Origin: an uncultured Clostridia bacterium
GTDB taxonomy: Bacteria; Bacillota; Clostridia; Saccharofermentanales; Saccharofermentanaceae
NCBI GenBank assembly: GCA_946537885.1
Contig: CAMNGC010000003.1
Span: 107,040 to 171,039, forward strand
Direction of reading: 5' to 3'
Length of the DNA: 64,000 nucleotides
The position numbers and the translations under genes were made by a program. Under the pieces are notes generated by a model. The model was given only the letters and a program-made list of their open reading frames with translations. It made no database searches and was not told where the DNA came from. Positions 1-49,595 of the stretch are shown piece after piece (within the stretch, counting starts at the first letter, position 1; each line of letters starts with the position of its first letter).

Positions 1-654
1 CACCACCGCATAAAAACGCTTTGAATGATTAGCCTCCAGAAAGTGCGCAAATTCATGCACGACAACATACTCTATCGCCTCATCAGGCGTCTCGAAAAGG
101 TTATAGCTGAAAGTCAGTATTCCACTGTCAGGTCTGCAGCAACCCCACCTGCTCCTCATAGTCCTGAACTTGATCTCGGAAGGTCTTTTCACCCCCATCC
201 TGGCGAAATAAGGATAGTACTGATCGCACATGTCCAGCACTTTGGCCCGAAGCTCCATACGGCGCCAGGACTCATAGATCCTTGTTCTCTCGGCTATCAG
301 ATCCGGCTTGGGAGTCAATATAACAAGCTCAGTATCCGTCATAGTGATCCCGCGTCTCGGGGCGAGCCTTATATGTATGAGATATCTCTGTCCGTAAATA
401 CTTACACTGTCCCCGTCCTTATATTCTGAAGGAAGGGCGGAATTGCCATTGCGCTCATCAGTTTTCTCAATTGCTTTAAGTATAAAACCGCTTTTGCTTT
501 TGACAAAAGAATCCACTTGCCCACAGGAAACATAGCGGCCACAGGAAACTGCAACAGTGCCATCACGCCTGATGCGCAGATTGATATTCTTGACCTTCTT
601 ACGAGTCAATTCATAGCTAATGACATTATTATCTGTCGCAACAGTTCTGATCAT
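1..654 (-). CDS. YgjP-like/DUF45 (SprT/M48-like) metal-dependent hydrolase, truncated by left window edge
   Basis: Minus-strand frame from ATG at 654 reads MIRTVATDNNVISYELTRKKVKNINLRIRRDG... RMGVKRPSEIKFRTMRSRWGCC...DEAIEYVVVHEFAHFLEANHSKRFYAVV; HEFAH zinc motif and RxRSRWGxC signature. Not in ORF track because it has no stop inside the window. Confidence 0.85.
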   Translation of the reverse strand, partial: MIRTVATDNNVISYELTRKKVKNINLRIRRDGTVAVSCGRYVSCGQVDSFVKSKSGFILKAIEKTDERNGNSALPSEYKDGDSVSIYGQRYLIHIRLAPRRGITMTDTELVILTPKPDLIAERTRIYESWRRMELRAKVLDMCDQYYPYFARMGVKRPSEIKFRTMRSRWGCCRPDSGILTFSYNLFETPDEAIEYVVVHEFAHFLEANHSKRFYAVV

Positions 655-45419: not shown

Positions 45420-45524
45420 CGGCTATCTTTTACCGCAAAATTATATCGTAAAATACTTTCGATAATCAAGAGATTTGATGTTGACAAGAAGGCTTCAACA
45501 TAATATAATCATTCAGCGTGAGAC

Positions 45525-45600
45525 GCCGCCTTAGCTCAGTTGGTAGAGCAGCTGATTTGTAATCAGCAGGTCGCGAGTTCGAGTCTCGCAAGCGGCTCCA
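45525..45600 (+). tRNA. tRNA-Thr (anticodon TGT), CCA encoded
   Basis: GCCGCCTTAGCTCAGTTGGTAGAGCAGCTGATTTGTAATCAGCAGGTCGCGAGTTCGAGTCTCGCAAGCGGCTCCA folds as a cloverleaf. Confidence 0.96.
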
Positions 45601-45604
45601 GATA

Positions 45605-45641
45605 AAAGCCCCGTGATCATGAGGTCACGGGGCTTTGTTTT
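45605..45641 (+). terminator. tRNA-Thr terminator
   Basis: AAAGCCCCGTGA-tcatgagg-TCACGGGGCTTT + T-rich. Confidence 0.85.
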
Positions 45642-45661
45642 TCTCATATCAGTTCCTGATA

Positions 45662-46438
45662 TCATTTGCCATTCTTAAGGAGTTCCTTGGAATAGTAGAT
45701 CTGCCTCTGGAAAGTCCGTATAGTCGCCATACTGTATTTCTTAAGGCTGAACGATATCGTGCTGCTGGCATAATGGATACGGAAATAACGGATCCTCGTA
45801 AGGAAGAATGATACGATACACAGGATGCTCATGACTATACCGAATACGAGACCTACTATCGATCTGATATTATCTCCCGCAGCAATGTAAGGTATAAGAC
45901 CACCGAGGAACACCAATGCCGCCAGGATCAGATATCCGTACAGATTCCTGGATATAAGTGTAGTTGCCGTGATATCCTCCAGATCGATAGTGGTCTCGAC
46001 ATTACGTTTATTGATGAGTCCGACAGACTTGTTATAGTAAAGCCTCTTGTTGGTTATAACAGCAGCCTCGTCTACGAATCCCTCGCTCGACATAAGGTTC
46101 ATCGCCTGATCGTTCGAGAGCATGTATATGATCCTCTCGTCGGGATCAACGATATAGGAGAACTTACCCGATGTCGGCTTGATCAGGTCGGGGCCGAGAG
46201 TCGTATTACGGGTATCCGTAGTAAGTCTGTAGTTTGCAGGTTCCTGACTGTTTCCCGGACGCACATCCGCACCGGCGATCTGACCGCCTGCAGGCGCCTG
46301 GCTGCTCCCCTGCAGTATATTCGCACCCGCGACCGGCGTCTGACTGTTTACTGTCGTACTCTCTGTCAGCGGAACACCGCAGCTAACACAGAAAGAACTT
46401 CCGTTACTGTTGATCTGTCCACATCTGTTGCAAATCAT
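45662..46438 (-). CDS. Zinc-ribbon + PH-like membrane protein
   Basis: MICNRCGQINSNGSSFCVSCGVPL; two C-terminal TM helices. Confidence 0.7.
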   Translation of the reverse strand: MICNRCGQINSNGSSFCVSCGVPLTESTTVNSQTPVAGANILQGSSQAPAGGQIAGADVRPGNSQEPANYRLTTDTRNTTLGPDLIKPTSGKFSYIVDPDERIIYMLSNDQAMNLMSSEGFVDEAAVITNKRLYYNKSVGLINKRNVETTIDLEDITATTLISRNLYGYLILAALVFLGGLIPYIAAGDNIRSIVGLVFGIVMSILCIVSFFLTRIRYFRIHYASSTISFSLKKYSMATIRTFQRQIYYSKELLKNGK

Positions 46439-47023: not shown

Positions 47024-47132
47024 ACATTTATTCTAACAATACTGAAATATAATTAAAATCATTTTCGAGAAATAAAAGCAACTTTAATTGTATAATACTA
47101 ATAGTAGAAAACCACACGATCCGGAGGCGCGA

Positions 47133-48074
47133 ATGGCCCTTATAACCATTTCAAGACAAAGCGGAAGTCTTGGCGACGAGTTGGCAGATTACCTGTCGGA
47201 AAAGCTCGGTTGCAGGGTAATCTCGCGCGATTATGCTCTTAATAATTATTTCGGCGATCTGTCTGACGGCTCTCTGGAGAGACTTAACGAGAGCGCCAAG
47301 TTTTTCCTCAATAATATGCCGGATTCCGACAAGACCTACCGCGATCAGCTGATAACCAAAATCAGAGCGGAAGCAGAGGCGGCAGGTGATAATGATCTTA
47401 TCATCTTGGGGCTCGGAGGCTGCGTATTATTCGGCCCAAACCCGAACTCCGTAAACATCAGGATCTATGCCGGCGAGGAGACGCGCAAGGTCAGGATCGC
47501 CCGCCGTTTTAATATCAGCACTGAGGAAGCATCTTCTATCATTGCCATCGGCGACCGTAAGCACAAAAGGTTTGTAAGTACGCTTTTCGAAAAGGATCTT
47601 AATTCTCCTGATCTCTATGACTTATCCTTAAACACGGATAAGATGTCTGTTGAAGAATGTGCCGCAGCAGTGCTGGCGATGGTTGATAAACACAAGCTCA
47701 GGCTCAAGATCACGGAGGAGACCTCAGGCAGCAATGTGATCGATCATCAGTCGGAATTACCTGTCTTCAAGAATCCAACCGAAGAGGAGTTCGCGCATAT
47801 ACTTGATATGTATGGCATCGAGTGGCTTTATGAACCCAAGACCTTTCCTATCGAGTGGGATGCGGAGGGCAATATAAAGATGGCTTTCTCCCCTGATTTC
47901 TATCTGCCCAAGTTCGATCTTTATCTCGAGCTTACGACAATGGATCAGAAATATGTAACAAAGAAGAACAAGAAAATGCGTATGGTTAGGGAGCTTTATC
48001 CCGGTACCAATATCAGGATCGTATATAAGAAGGATTTCCAGGAGCTGGTCGACAGGCTCAGCAGGTTCGGCTGA
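47133..48074 (+). CDS. Cytidylate kinase-like domain fused to PD-(D/E)XK-like C-terminal domain
   Basis: MALITISRQSGSLGDELADYLSEKLGCRVISRD; C-term MAFSPDFYLPKFDLYLELTTMDQKYVTKKNKKMRMVRELYPGTNIRIVYKKD; ATG after GGAGGCGCGA. Confidence 0.7.
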   Translation: MALITISRQSGSLGDELADYLSEKLGCRVISRDYALNNYFGDLSDGSLERLNESAKFFLNNMPDSDKTYRDQLITKIRAEAEAAGDNDLIILGLGGCVLFGPNPNSVNIRIYAGEETRKVRIARRFNISTEEASSIIAIGDRKHKRFVSTLFEKDLNSPDLYDLSLNTDKMSVEECAAAVLAMVDKHKLRLKITEETSGSNVIDHQSELPVFKNPTEEEFAHILDMYGIEWLYEPKTFPIEWDAEGNIKMAFSPDFYLPKFDLYLELTTMDQKYVTKKNKKMRMVRELYPGTNIRIVYKKDFQELVDRLSRFG

Positions 48075-48098: not shown

Positions 48099-48647
48099 AT
48101 GTCTAAGGTACTTAATGACAGTATCGAGATCAAACGTATTGTCTATGATGCAGACACTATCGCAGCAAGAGTAAAAGAGCTCGGTGCAAGGATCACGGAG
48201 GACTACAAGGGTGAAGAGCTTATCGTAGTCGGCGTCATCAAGGGCTCTCTGTATTTTTTCTCCGATCTCACAAGGGCGATCGATCTTCCGATCCAGGTGG
48301 ACATGATGGGCTTCGGCAACATCCCGGATACAACATCCAAGACAGGCGTTGTTCGCATCACCAAAGATATCGATATCGATATTACCGATAAGCATGTACT
48401 GATCGTAGAAGATGTAATCCGCACCGGGCTAACCACTGCCTATCTCATCTCAAATCTCGAGTCCAAGAAGCCTCGTGACATTACACTTGCCACTATGCTC
48501 TTAAATCCTGATCGTCTGCTTATGACGATCCCGGTCAAATACTACGGCTTCGAGATCAATGACAGTTGGCTTTTGGGGTATGGTCTGGACATCAGGGAGA
48601 AAGGCCGTAACCTCCCCTATATCGCCGAGCTTATGAAGAAGCAGTAA
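48099..48647 (+). CDS. hpt: Hypoxanthine phosphoribosyltransferase
   Basis: VGVIKGSLYFFSDLTRAI, HVLIVEDVIRTGLT. Confidence 0.96.
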   Translation: MSKVLNDSIEIKRIVYDADTIAARVKELGARITEDYKGEELIVVGVIKGSLYFFSDLTRAIDLPIQVDMMGFGNIPDTTSKTGVVRITKDIDIDITDKHVLIVEDVIRTGLTTAYLISNLESKKPRDITLATMLLNPDRLLMTIPVKYYGFEINDSWLLGYGLDIREKGRNLPYIAELMKKQ

Positions 48648-48727: not shown

Positions 48728-49392
48728 CAAAAAGAGCTACCCGGTCAGGATAGCTCTTTGTATTTGAAAGCTCCAGCGAACCCAATCTCCGTCTGCCCTC
48801 TCGAGCAGCACATCCTCGAACTGTACGTCGCCCTTTGCCAACTCCACGAGCCTTTCTTGATATCGCAACGAACCATTGACTGCTGCGACTCAAATCTCAC
48901 ACCGTGCAACTCATGTCTCCCATTCACCGCTTTTAATCTCTTGCTTTACGTTCACCGTAGGTCTAAGAGCTTCAGTCAAATCTTCAATCCAGCATACACT
49001 ACATCAAATCGTCTGCTCTTGTTGTAACCTCTGGCGTGAACCACACCGGCTACTCGGTTTGCACGAACCGATGTAACATCCGTCGAGCCTCGGCACCTAT
49101 CTCTCGGCTGTGACATCTCACAGGCACGCGAATCGGAAATCCGAATCAACTATTCTGTTACAACCTGCGACTTGTAAGTGGAAACCCACTCCGTCAATCG
49201 CTGTGCTCGTATCTCCTTCCTCTTCTAAGCCTCTGCTTCGTCTCCCCTCTGGCTCAAGCATCTCTGCCGGCTTCGGTTCGTCTCTTCGGCTTCGCCTCCG
49301 ATCCGGGGATCTTCAGTTCTACCCTGCGCTCCGCTCATCTGATTCAGGCGGCCTCCGTGTCCGAAGAATCTGTCTTCGTATTCCCTGGAGCT
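48728..49392 (-). ncRNA. Candidate large (~665 nt) structured non-coding RNA
   Basis: Minus-strand promoter TTGTTA(49422-49427)-17-TATTAT(49399-49404); many short hairpins, e.g. CTGTGA-gatg-TCACAG, CTGCTC-gaga-GGGCAG, CGGTT-cgtgca-AACCG; terminator AAAGAGCTA-tcctgaccggg-TAGCTCTTTTT at 48728-48759; no convincing ORF. Confidence 0.7.
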
Positions 49393-49595
49393 ACTTTAAT
49401 AATACAATGGACCCGTAATTGTAACAATCTCGTTTAAATACCAAAAAACTTTCGAGGAATTGTGCATTCTGTTGTATTAGCACAAAAACGCCCGCGTGTT
49501 ATAATTAATATGTTGTGCAACAGCACAATCTATTCCAATCACAGCTTGTTTCCTGTTATAATCCCTATAGCTTTTGCTTTACGGAGGATAGATTC

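Follow-up and report, generated by a model that had tools for sequence, protein, structure and literature searches.

A large structured RNA outside the catalogued families, near-invariant at its ends and fast-changing in its interior, encoded beside hpt and a kinase-nuclease fusion gene in a bacterial order found mostly in the gut

Very few bacterial RNAs of the size and complexity of the one described here are known, and most of them have no assigned function. OLE is a structured RNA of ~600 nt from Bacillota, which forms a ribonucleoprotein (RNP) with dedicated proteins (PMC9723947, PMC12054373). ROOL and GOLLD, large ornate RNAs of similar size whose function is unknown, reside in phage and prophage genomes, where tRNA islands are often close by (PMC12286853). 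The raiA motif, or ModT, is a conserved trans-acting structured RNA of Bacillota (PMC11706538). The RNA that we analyze here, encoded in a 64,000-nt stretch of DNA from an uncultured Clostridia bacterium (hereafter the window), resembles each of these in part. It is a structured Bacillota RNA in the ~600-nt range like OLE, it is large, ornate and of unknown function like ROOL and GOLLD, and like raiA/ModT it belongs to a conserved class in Bacillota, for which action in trans can be inferred. However, it matches none of them in Rfam. It differs from OLE in having hpt and a kinase-nuclease gene as neighbors, and in combining a divergent interior with an invariant terminal stem. It differs from ROOL and GOLLD in being chromosomal, spread across an order in a conserved gene order and absent from the phage and plasmid collections searched, and from raiA/ModT in genomic context and conserved sequence. 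To our knowledge, no RNA has been associated with a protein pair consisting of a hypoxanthine phosphoribosyltransferase (HPRT)-like protein and a kinase-nuclease. The RNA class and the type of locus are categorically new in the sense that they match no known family; a "large structured bacterial RNA" is in itself a known kind.

An earlier note, made from the window sequence alone, had described at this place a promoter, ~665 nt without a plausible protein and an end formed by a hairpin and U-run, and had proposed a large structured noncoding RNA (ncRNA) belonging either to a known class such as OLE, ROOL or GOLLD, or to an undescribed one. All of the described sequence elements are present (Table 1). 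The RNA measures ~625 nt up to its closing stem and ~665 nt with the terminator included, and its transcription probably starts near position 49392, as inferred from sequence comparison in the absence of expression data. Taken singly, these elements carry little weight: a promoter scan of the single sequence found 3 candidates versus 2.3 in shuffled sequence, a terminator scan found 2 versus 1.5, and the fold of the window RNA alone is only moderately better than that of shuffles (z = -2.7). The case for the RNA therefore rests on comparison. Among the 94 relatives described below, 89 have a TTGNNN-16/18-TANNNT promoter at a fixed distance. Most homologues show a terminator-like hairpin with a U-run past the 3' end of the RNA, as judged by eye, and TTTT occurs within 40 nt of the RNA end in 60 of the 94.

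Table 1. Features of the RNA locus and its neighboring genes in the window
Feature	Window coordinates	RNA positions	Strand	Remarks
Large structured ncRNA transcription unit	48729..49394		-	From conserved RNA start to terminator; based on genus-wide conservation, covariation and conserved promoter, ends and terminators
Sigma-70-type promoter TTGTTA-17-TATTAT	49399..49427		-	TTGTTA 49427-49422, TATTAT 49404-49399
Terminal stem P1, 5' strand GCUCCAGGGAAU	49380..49391		-	Invariant G.G mismatch flanked by 7 bp and 4 bp; compensatory changes seen in the set of 94 relatives
Most conserved core	49045..49209	186-350	-	Covered by covariance model R1, which matches 81/87 genus genomes
Covarying hairpin GCGAUUGACGG...ACAAGUCGC		194-228	-	Within most conserved core
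Long arm capped by GUGA-GAUG-UCAC hairpin		251-305	-	Within most conserved core
3' core	48847..48930	465-548	-	Long-range pairing with 5' core (helices 4, 7, 8, 11-16)
Terminal stem P1, 3' strand GGUUCGCUGGAGC	48770..48782		-	Conserved terminal stem
Intrinsic terminator AAAGAGCUAUCCUGACCGGGUAGCUCUUUUU	48729..48762		-	Hairpin and U-run
hpt, HPRT-like protein	48099..48647		+	Convergent with RNA; HPRT family and fold match; Arg replaces the catalytic Asp in the motif E-D-x-x-D-[ST]-G
Cytidylate-kinase-like and PD-(D/E)XK (T7 endonuclease I-like) fusion gene	47088..48074		+	Family matches; probable start 47133

As for the identity of the RNA, comparison with catalogued families gave no credible match, so that the "known class" branch of the earlier proposal failed and the "undescribed class" branch stands. 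When the window RNA was run with cmscan against Rfam 15 (4227 families), nothing reached the gathering threshold and only two meaningless matches appeared at E<=10. Nothing credible was found either at 24 loci carrying diverged relatives from sister genera and other families, permissive thresholds included; the permissive matches that did appear (SNORD67, HOXB13-AS1_2, Thr_leader, sau-5971 and STnc390) were dismissed as nonsense. In particular, the covariance models of OLE, ROOL, GOLLD and raiA/ModT were matched neither by the window copy nor by the diverged relatives. The Pfam assignments of the flanking genes in the window include none recognizable as an OLE-associated protein, a comparison made without a model for such a protein. 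A divergent RNase P or tmRNA was considered and dropped, separate copies of both being present elsewhere in the genome, as was a divergent 6S RNA, 6S-like matches being found elsewhere in two members of the genus and in three genomes of other families. We found no match to the RNA in the phage and plasmid collections searched, and no description of the class in the open-access literature searched, which leaves subscription papers outside our coverage.

Within the genus Saccharofermentans the RNA is widespread. BLASTN detected it in 54 of 59 genomes including its own (53 of the 58 others), with no match among 40 genomes from the rest of the order; a covariance model restricted to the core (R1; Table 1) likewise matched most of the genus. 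A pattern search for the genus RNA returned records almost exclusively labeled Saccharofermentans, Clostridiales, Oscillospiraceae or Ruminococcaceae, mostly from rumen or other gut samples, which places the window in a Saccharofermentans-like bacterium. The cultured isolates Ruminococcaceae bacterium KHP2, AB4001 and YAD3003 are among the carriers. The RNAalifold consensus of 39 diverse homologues is one closed molecule, in which a terminal stem (P1) pairs RNA positions 4-17 with 613-625 and long-range helices connect the 5' and 3' halves.

This structure is supported by covariation as a whole rather than pair by pair. Summed covariation reaches 723, with a mean of -11 and a maximum of 29 in 15 tree-based simulations without structure, and 94% of pairs are canonical versus at most 85% in the same simulations. 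Since only four single pairs are significant at E<0.05 (197-225, 206-217, 207-216 and 274-285), our claim of covariation concerns the structure in its entirety. When all column pairs of the alignment, which is dominated by two clades, were tested individually, only one had E<=1; structure-restricted and summed tests were used instead. In a second alignment of 33 homologues, made separately with MAFFT (A2), 96.5% of cells pair and 35 of 85 pairs show changes on both sides. None of 500 shuffles reaches any of these measures and slid controls pair at 32-40%, with the caveat that a structure derived from the same sequences has an advantage over its slid versions. Two hairpins named in the earlier note, CTGTGA-gatg-TCACAG and AGTGG-gttt-CCACT, are real and covarying. 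A third, CGGTT-cgtgca-AACCG, is in competition with a conserved long-range pairing (319-334 with 478-498). The hairpin and the pairing alike are almost invariant, and these data do not decide between them. The remaining two, CTGCTC-gaga-GGGCAG and TACG-gtgaa-CGTA, lie in parts without genus-wide conservation.

There is no sign of a protein. No reading frame is conserved and the longest open stretches are like those of shuffled sequence, 83% of the indels among homologues are not multiples of three, and Pfam has no match for the two ORFs overlapping the RNA region. The two outcomes by which the earlier proposal could have been refuted and which we looked for, a protein match and a lack of covariation, both came out in favor of an ncRNA. 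The claim is strongly supported by conservation, covariation, the fixed promoter and the absence of a conserved reading frame, and we consider it very likely that the RNA represents a real functional class, although its expression is untested.

The RNA is not confined to one genus. Weak R1 matches in a sister genus adjoin the hpt orthologue, and we therefore began a motif search. In four sister genera, AGCUCCARGGAA and GGUUCGYUGGARC occur ~270-590 nt apart in an orientation convergent to hpt, and they are found in nearly all examined members whose orthologous hpt lies on a contig of sufficient length. Three more families of the order also carry the 5' pattern, clearly more often than a reversed control does, and the pattern is real in one genome of another order (L255). 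In total, 94 relatives were collected; they represent five genera of the window's own family, three families from the rest of the order and a single additional order. What they have in common is a near-invariant terminal stem, 5' GCUCCARGGAAURC ... GGUUCGYUGGAGC 3'. It consists of seven pairs followed by a G.G mismatch (94/94), then four pairs including a U.G wobble (93/94), usually a bulged purine, and a C-G pair (94/94). Its pairs vary in a compensatory manner (GCUCCAG/CUGGAGC, GCUCCAA/UUGGAGC, GUUCCAG/CUGGAAC and GCUUCAG/CUGAAGC). This stem, the most conserved feature of the RNA, had been overlooked in the earlier note, and the finding is larger than was then reported.

How much of this invariance is due to the way in which relatives were collected? 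Seven complementary pairs were a condition of the stem search, as were the flanking letters G-[GA]AAU-N-C and [GA][GA][UA]UCG, and the constancy of these letters, G.G mismatch included, arises partly because the search demanded them. However, the genus set collected by BLASTN, without use of the motif, has the same stem letters. The search produced 2 matches in 1,319 kb of reversed sequence, and a handful of the 94 relatives may be chance stems; in addition, presence calls in families f2-f4 are based in part on the exact 14-base pattern. When this 14-base 5' pattern was searched across the class, 14 of 15 matches outside the order were attributed to chance, as they lacked the 3' element and most fell in apparent coding sequence; the fifteenth is the real one at L255. 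Matches to a 21-mer in a gammaproteobacterial MAG (L168) and a viral contig (L320) were likewise rejected as chance, and a class-wide search with a hairpin model (R2) found only members of the order.

Between these ends the RNA changes fast. In the further families the interior is unrecognizable and the RNAs range from about 244 to 1,135 nt in length. In this order, whose members are mostly gut bacteria, the comparison shows RNA ends that hardly change on either side of a rapidly evolving middle. As a separate observation, two genomes (G064, locus L228, and G067, locus L229) have tandem copies with the same ends and different interiors; at L229, where the contig ends, the second copy continues into a short tandem repeat (GATCAAAA).

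The genomic neighborhood is conserved as well. In the window, across the order and at L255, the usual arrangement is an RNA pointing at the 3' end of hpt, followed by the kinase-nuclease fusion gene. In 190 genomes of the order, tallied by hand, the RNA and the fusion gene are both present in 126 and both absent in 40, the RNA occurs alone in 9 and the gene alone in 2, with 13 unresolved. The nine RNA-only genomes are mostly incomplete assemblies; one that is 99% complete (G012) has the RNA without a full kinase-nuclease gene. The two gene-only genomes (G059 and G105, both in family f2) have no detectable RNA. Within four genera that otherwise have both (g1, g28, g29 and g21), RNA and gene are absent together. 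In five genomes (G060, G135, G137, G039 and G040), both are kept on separate contigs and close linkage alone is therefore an insufficient explanation, bearing in mind that draft contigs may be joined in the genome. Because Fisher values ignore shared ancestry, we did not use them as probabilities. It remains possible that shared ancestry and loss of a single locus explain much of the co-occurrence, as independent losses were not counted on a tree.

Both neighboring proteins have unusual residues where catalysis is expected. Characterized HPRTs use the second Asp of E-D-x-x-D-[ST]-G as their catalytic base. At the orthologous hpt loci (L032-L084, L117-L138, L230-L243, L255 and L300-L316), the PRPP-loop motif reads E-D-x-x-R-[ST]-G, with Arg in 78 of 79 motif matches and Asn in one, and second HPRT copies in genomes of the family have Asp in 12 of 12. 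Family models label the Arg-bearing paralogue simply hpt, and in two families the HPRT-like protein has drifted further. HPRT activity may have been lost, but this is inferred from one residue, and Arg might alter the substrate instead of abolishing catalysis. In the fusion protein, a fold search supports the kinase half, and the structure model is less certain in the nuclease half. The nuclease motif keeps P, D and E, with T or V at the K position in 27 of 27 aligned orthologues, and the kinase P-loop is without the usual basic residue. In view of these altered residues, both proteins look repurposed, as inferred from sequence alone. A reading of the fusion as a defense system was set aside because the gene order is common to most of the order rather than patchy; PADLOC gave only weak PD-(D/E)XK and kinase similarity.

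The comparison establishes the structure, the promoter, the invariant ends and divergent interior, the synteny of RNA, hpt and kinase-nuclease gene, and the co-occurrence of the RNA with the latter. Our main reading, to which we assign a probability of roughly 0.5, and against which count the lack of expression, binding or phenotype data and the genomes with only the RNA (G012) or only the gene (G059 and G105), is that this is an uncatalogued class of large RNA acting as an RNP with the HPRT-like and kinase-nuclease pair. That it functions with at least one of the two proteins is likewise an inference, which we hold with a shade less than even confidence. In the proposed mechanism, the RNA would be a stand-alone, trans-acting structured molecule transcribed from its own promoter and closed by the terminal stem, with its G.G mismatch, U.G wobble and usually bulged purine. 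This stem may be the docking site for one or both partners, although no binding data exist; by analogy, the likeliest binder would be the HPRT-like protein and/or the kinase-PD-(D/E)XK fusion. RNA and proteins would then form an RNP in which the proteins, instead of serving as ordinary salvage enzymes, sense nucleotides or bind RNA, and the variable interior may provide a species-specific scaffold. There is a precedent for part of this in PyrR, an RNA-binding phosphoribosyltransferase that acts as a nucleotide sensor, which is the role proposed here for the HPRT-like protein. In contrast to PyrR, the linked protein is of HPRT type and has Arg for the catalytic Asp, and its RNA binding is not supported by any data. 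For the fusion protein, the comparison is T7 endonuclease I, which binds branched nucleic acids.

Several other explanations deserve consideration. The most serious, which remains possible, is that this is an independent large ornate RNA acting without protein partners, perhaps multimerizing as in ROOL and GOLLD cages or OLE dimers, and that the neighborhood merely reflects inherited gene order. Its size, purine-rich branched fold and fast interior evolution match those classes, the gene order may indeed simply be inherited, and the RNA is retained without the fusion gene in G012. Against it, RNA and fusion gene are found in the same genomes even without linkage, the active site of the linked HPRT copy is altered, and what is invariant is the terminal stem rather than internal contact sites. 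We find it unlikely that the RNA regulates the convergent hpt/kinase transcript, as an antisense RNA or through an overlapping 3' end or bidirectional terminator, and thereby controls purine salvage. The RNA is convergent with hpt across the order, and sometimes only ~20-30 bp separate its 3' end from the hpt match. However, in the window and most of the genus it stops at least ~80 bp short of hpt, and there is therefore no long complementarity. Moreover, it is structure rather than complementarity to hpt that is conserved, and some genomes have the RNA and hpt at unlinked places.

The possibility of a highly diverged OLE, ROOL, GOLLD, raiA or RNase P/tmRNA/6S RNA fits the size range and phylum, but it is very unlikely given the lack of a credible Rfam match for the window copy and the 24 other loci even at permissive thresholds, the separate RNase P and tmRNA in the genome and the 6S-like matches in relatives. 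From the near-chance scans for promoter, terminator and fold in the single sequence, one could argue that the sequence is a protein gene in decay or folds by chance and has no function. This explanation is all but excluded, being refuted by covariation: conservation is genus-wide with compensatory changes, there is no conserved frame or Pfam match, and the ends are invariant across the order.

Returning to the RNP reading, a bolder version can be formulated, toward which we lean less than toward its denial. The locus would encode a new bacterial RNP. Its large RNA would dock proteins through a fixed terminal stem while its interior evolves freely, and its protein partners would be a repurposed and probably catalytically dead HPRT and a kinase-nuclease fusion. 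Retained in most of the order, this machine would sense nucleotides or survey nucleic acids. What distinguishes this RNA is the handle on its function provided by a near-invariant terminal stem of ~26 nt and two co-occurring proteins, one of which lacks a catalytic residue in nearly every copy. Stem and partner proteins turn the usual dead end of a "large RNA of unknown function" into a directly testable question. If the RNP reading is true, it would tie a large RNA to nucleotide-binding proteins in a manner without known precedent, and it would be an example of an RNA whose ends persist while what lies between them is exchanged.

Some minor observations concern other RNAs and the surroundings of the locus. 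The Rfam 6S model has no match in four of six Saccharofermentans-group genomes tested (G000, G002, G004 and G005), and 6S matches are present in the tested genomes of other families of the order. A single tRNA-Thr is located 3.1 kb from the RNA in the window, at 45525-45600 (within 45466-45665); the small, mechanically called ORFs on its opposite strand (MRDSNSRPADYKSAALPTEL...) are a typical tRNA-derived artifact. Finally, an imperfect inverted repeat, TTGTGCA...GCACAA, is found upstream, in the stretch that separates the RNA promoter from the MscS gene (window positions 49460-49485), and a similar upstream inverted repeat is found in 15 of 52 homologues versus 1 in shuffled sequence.
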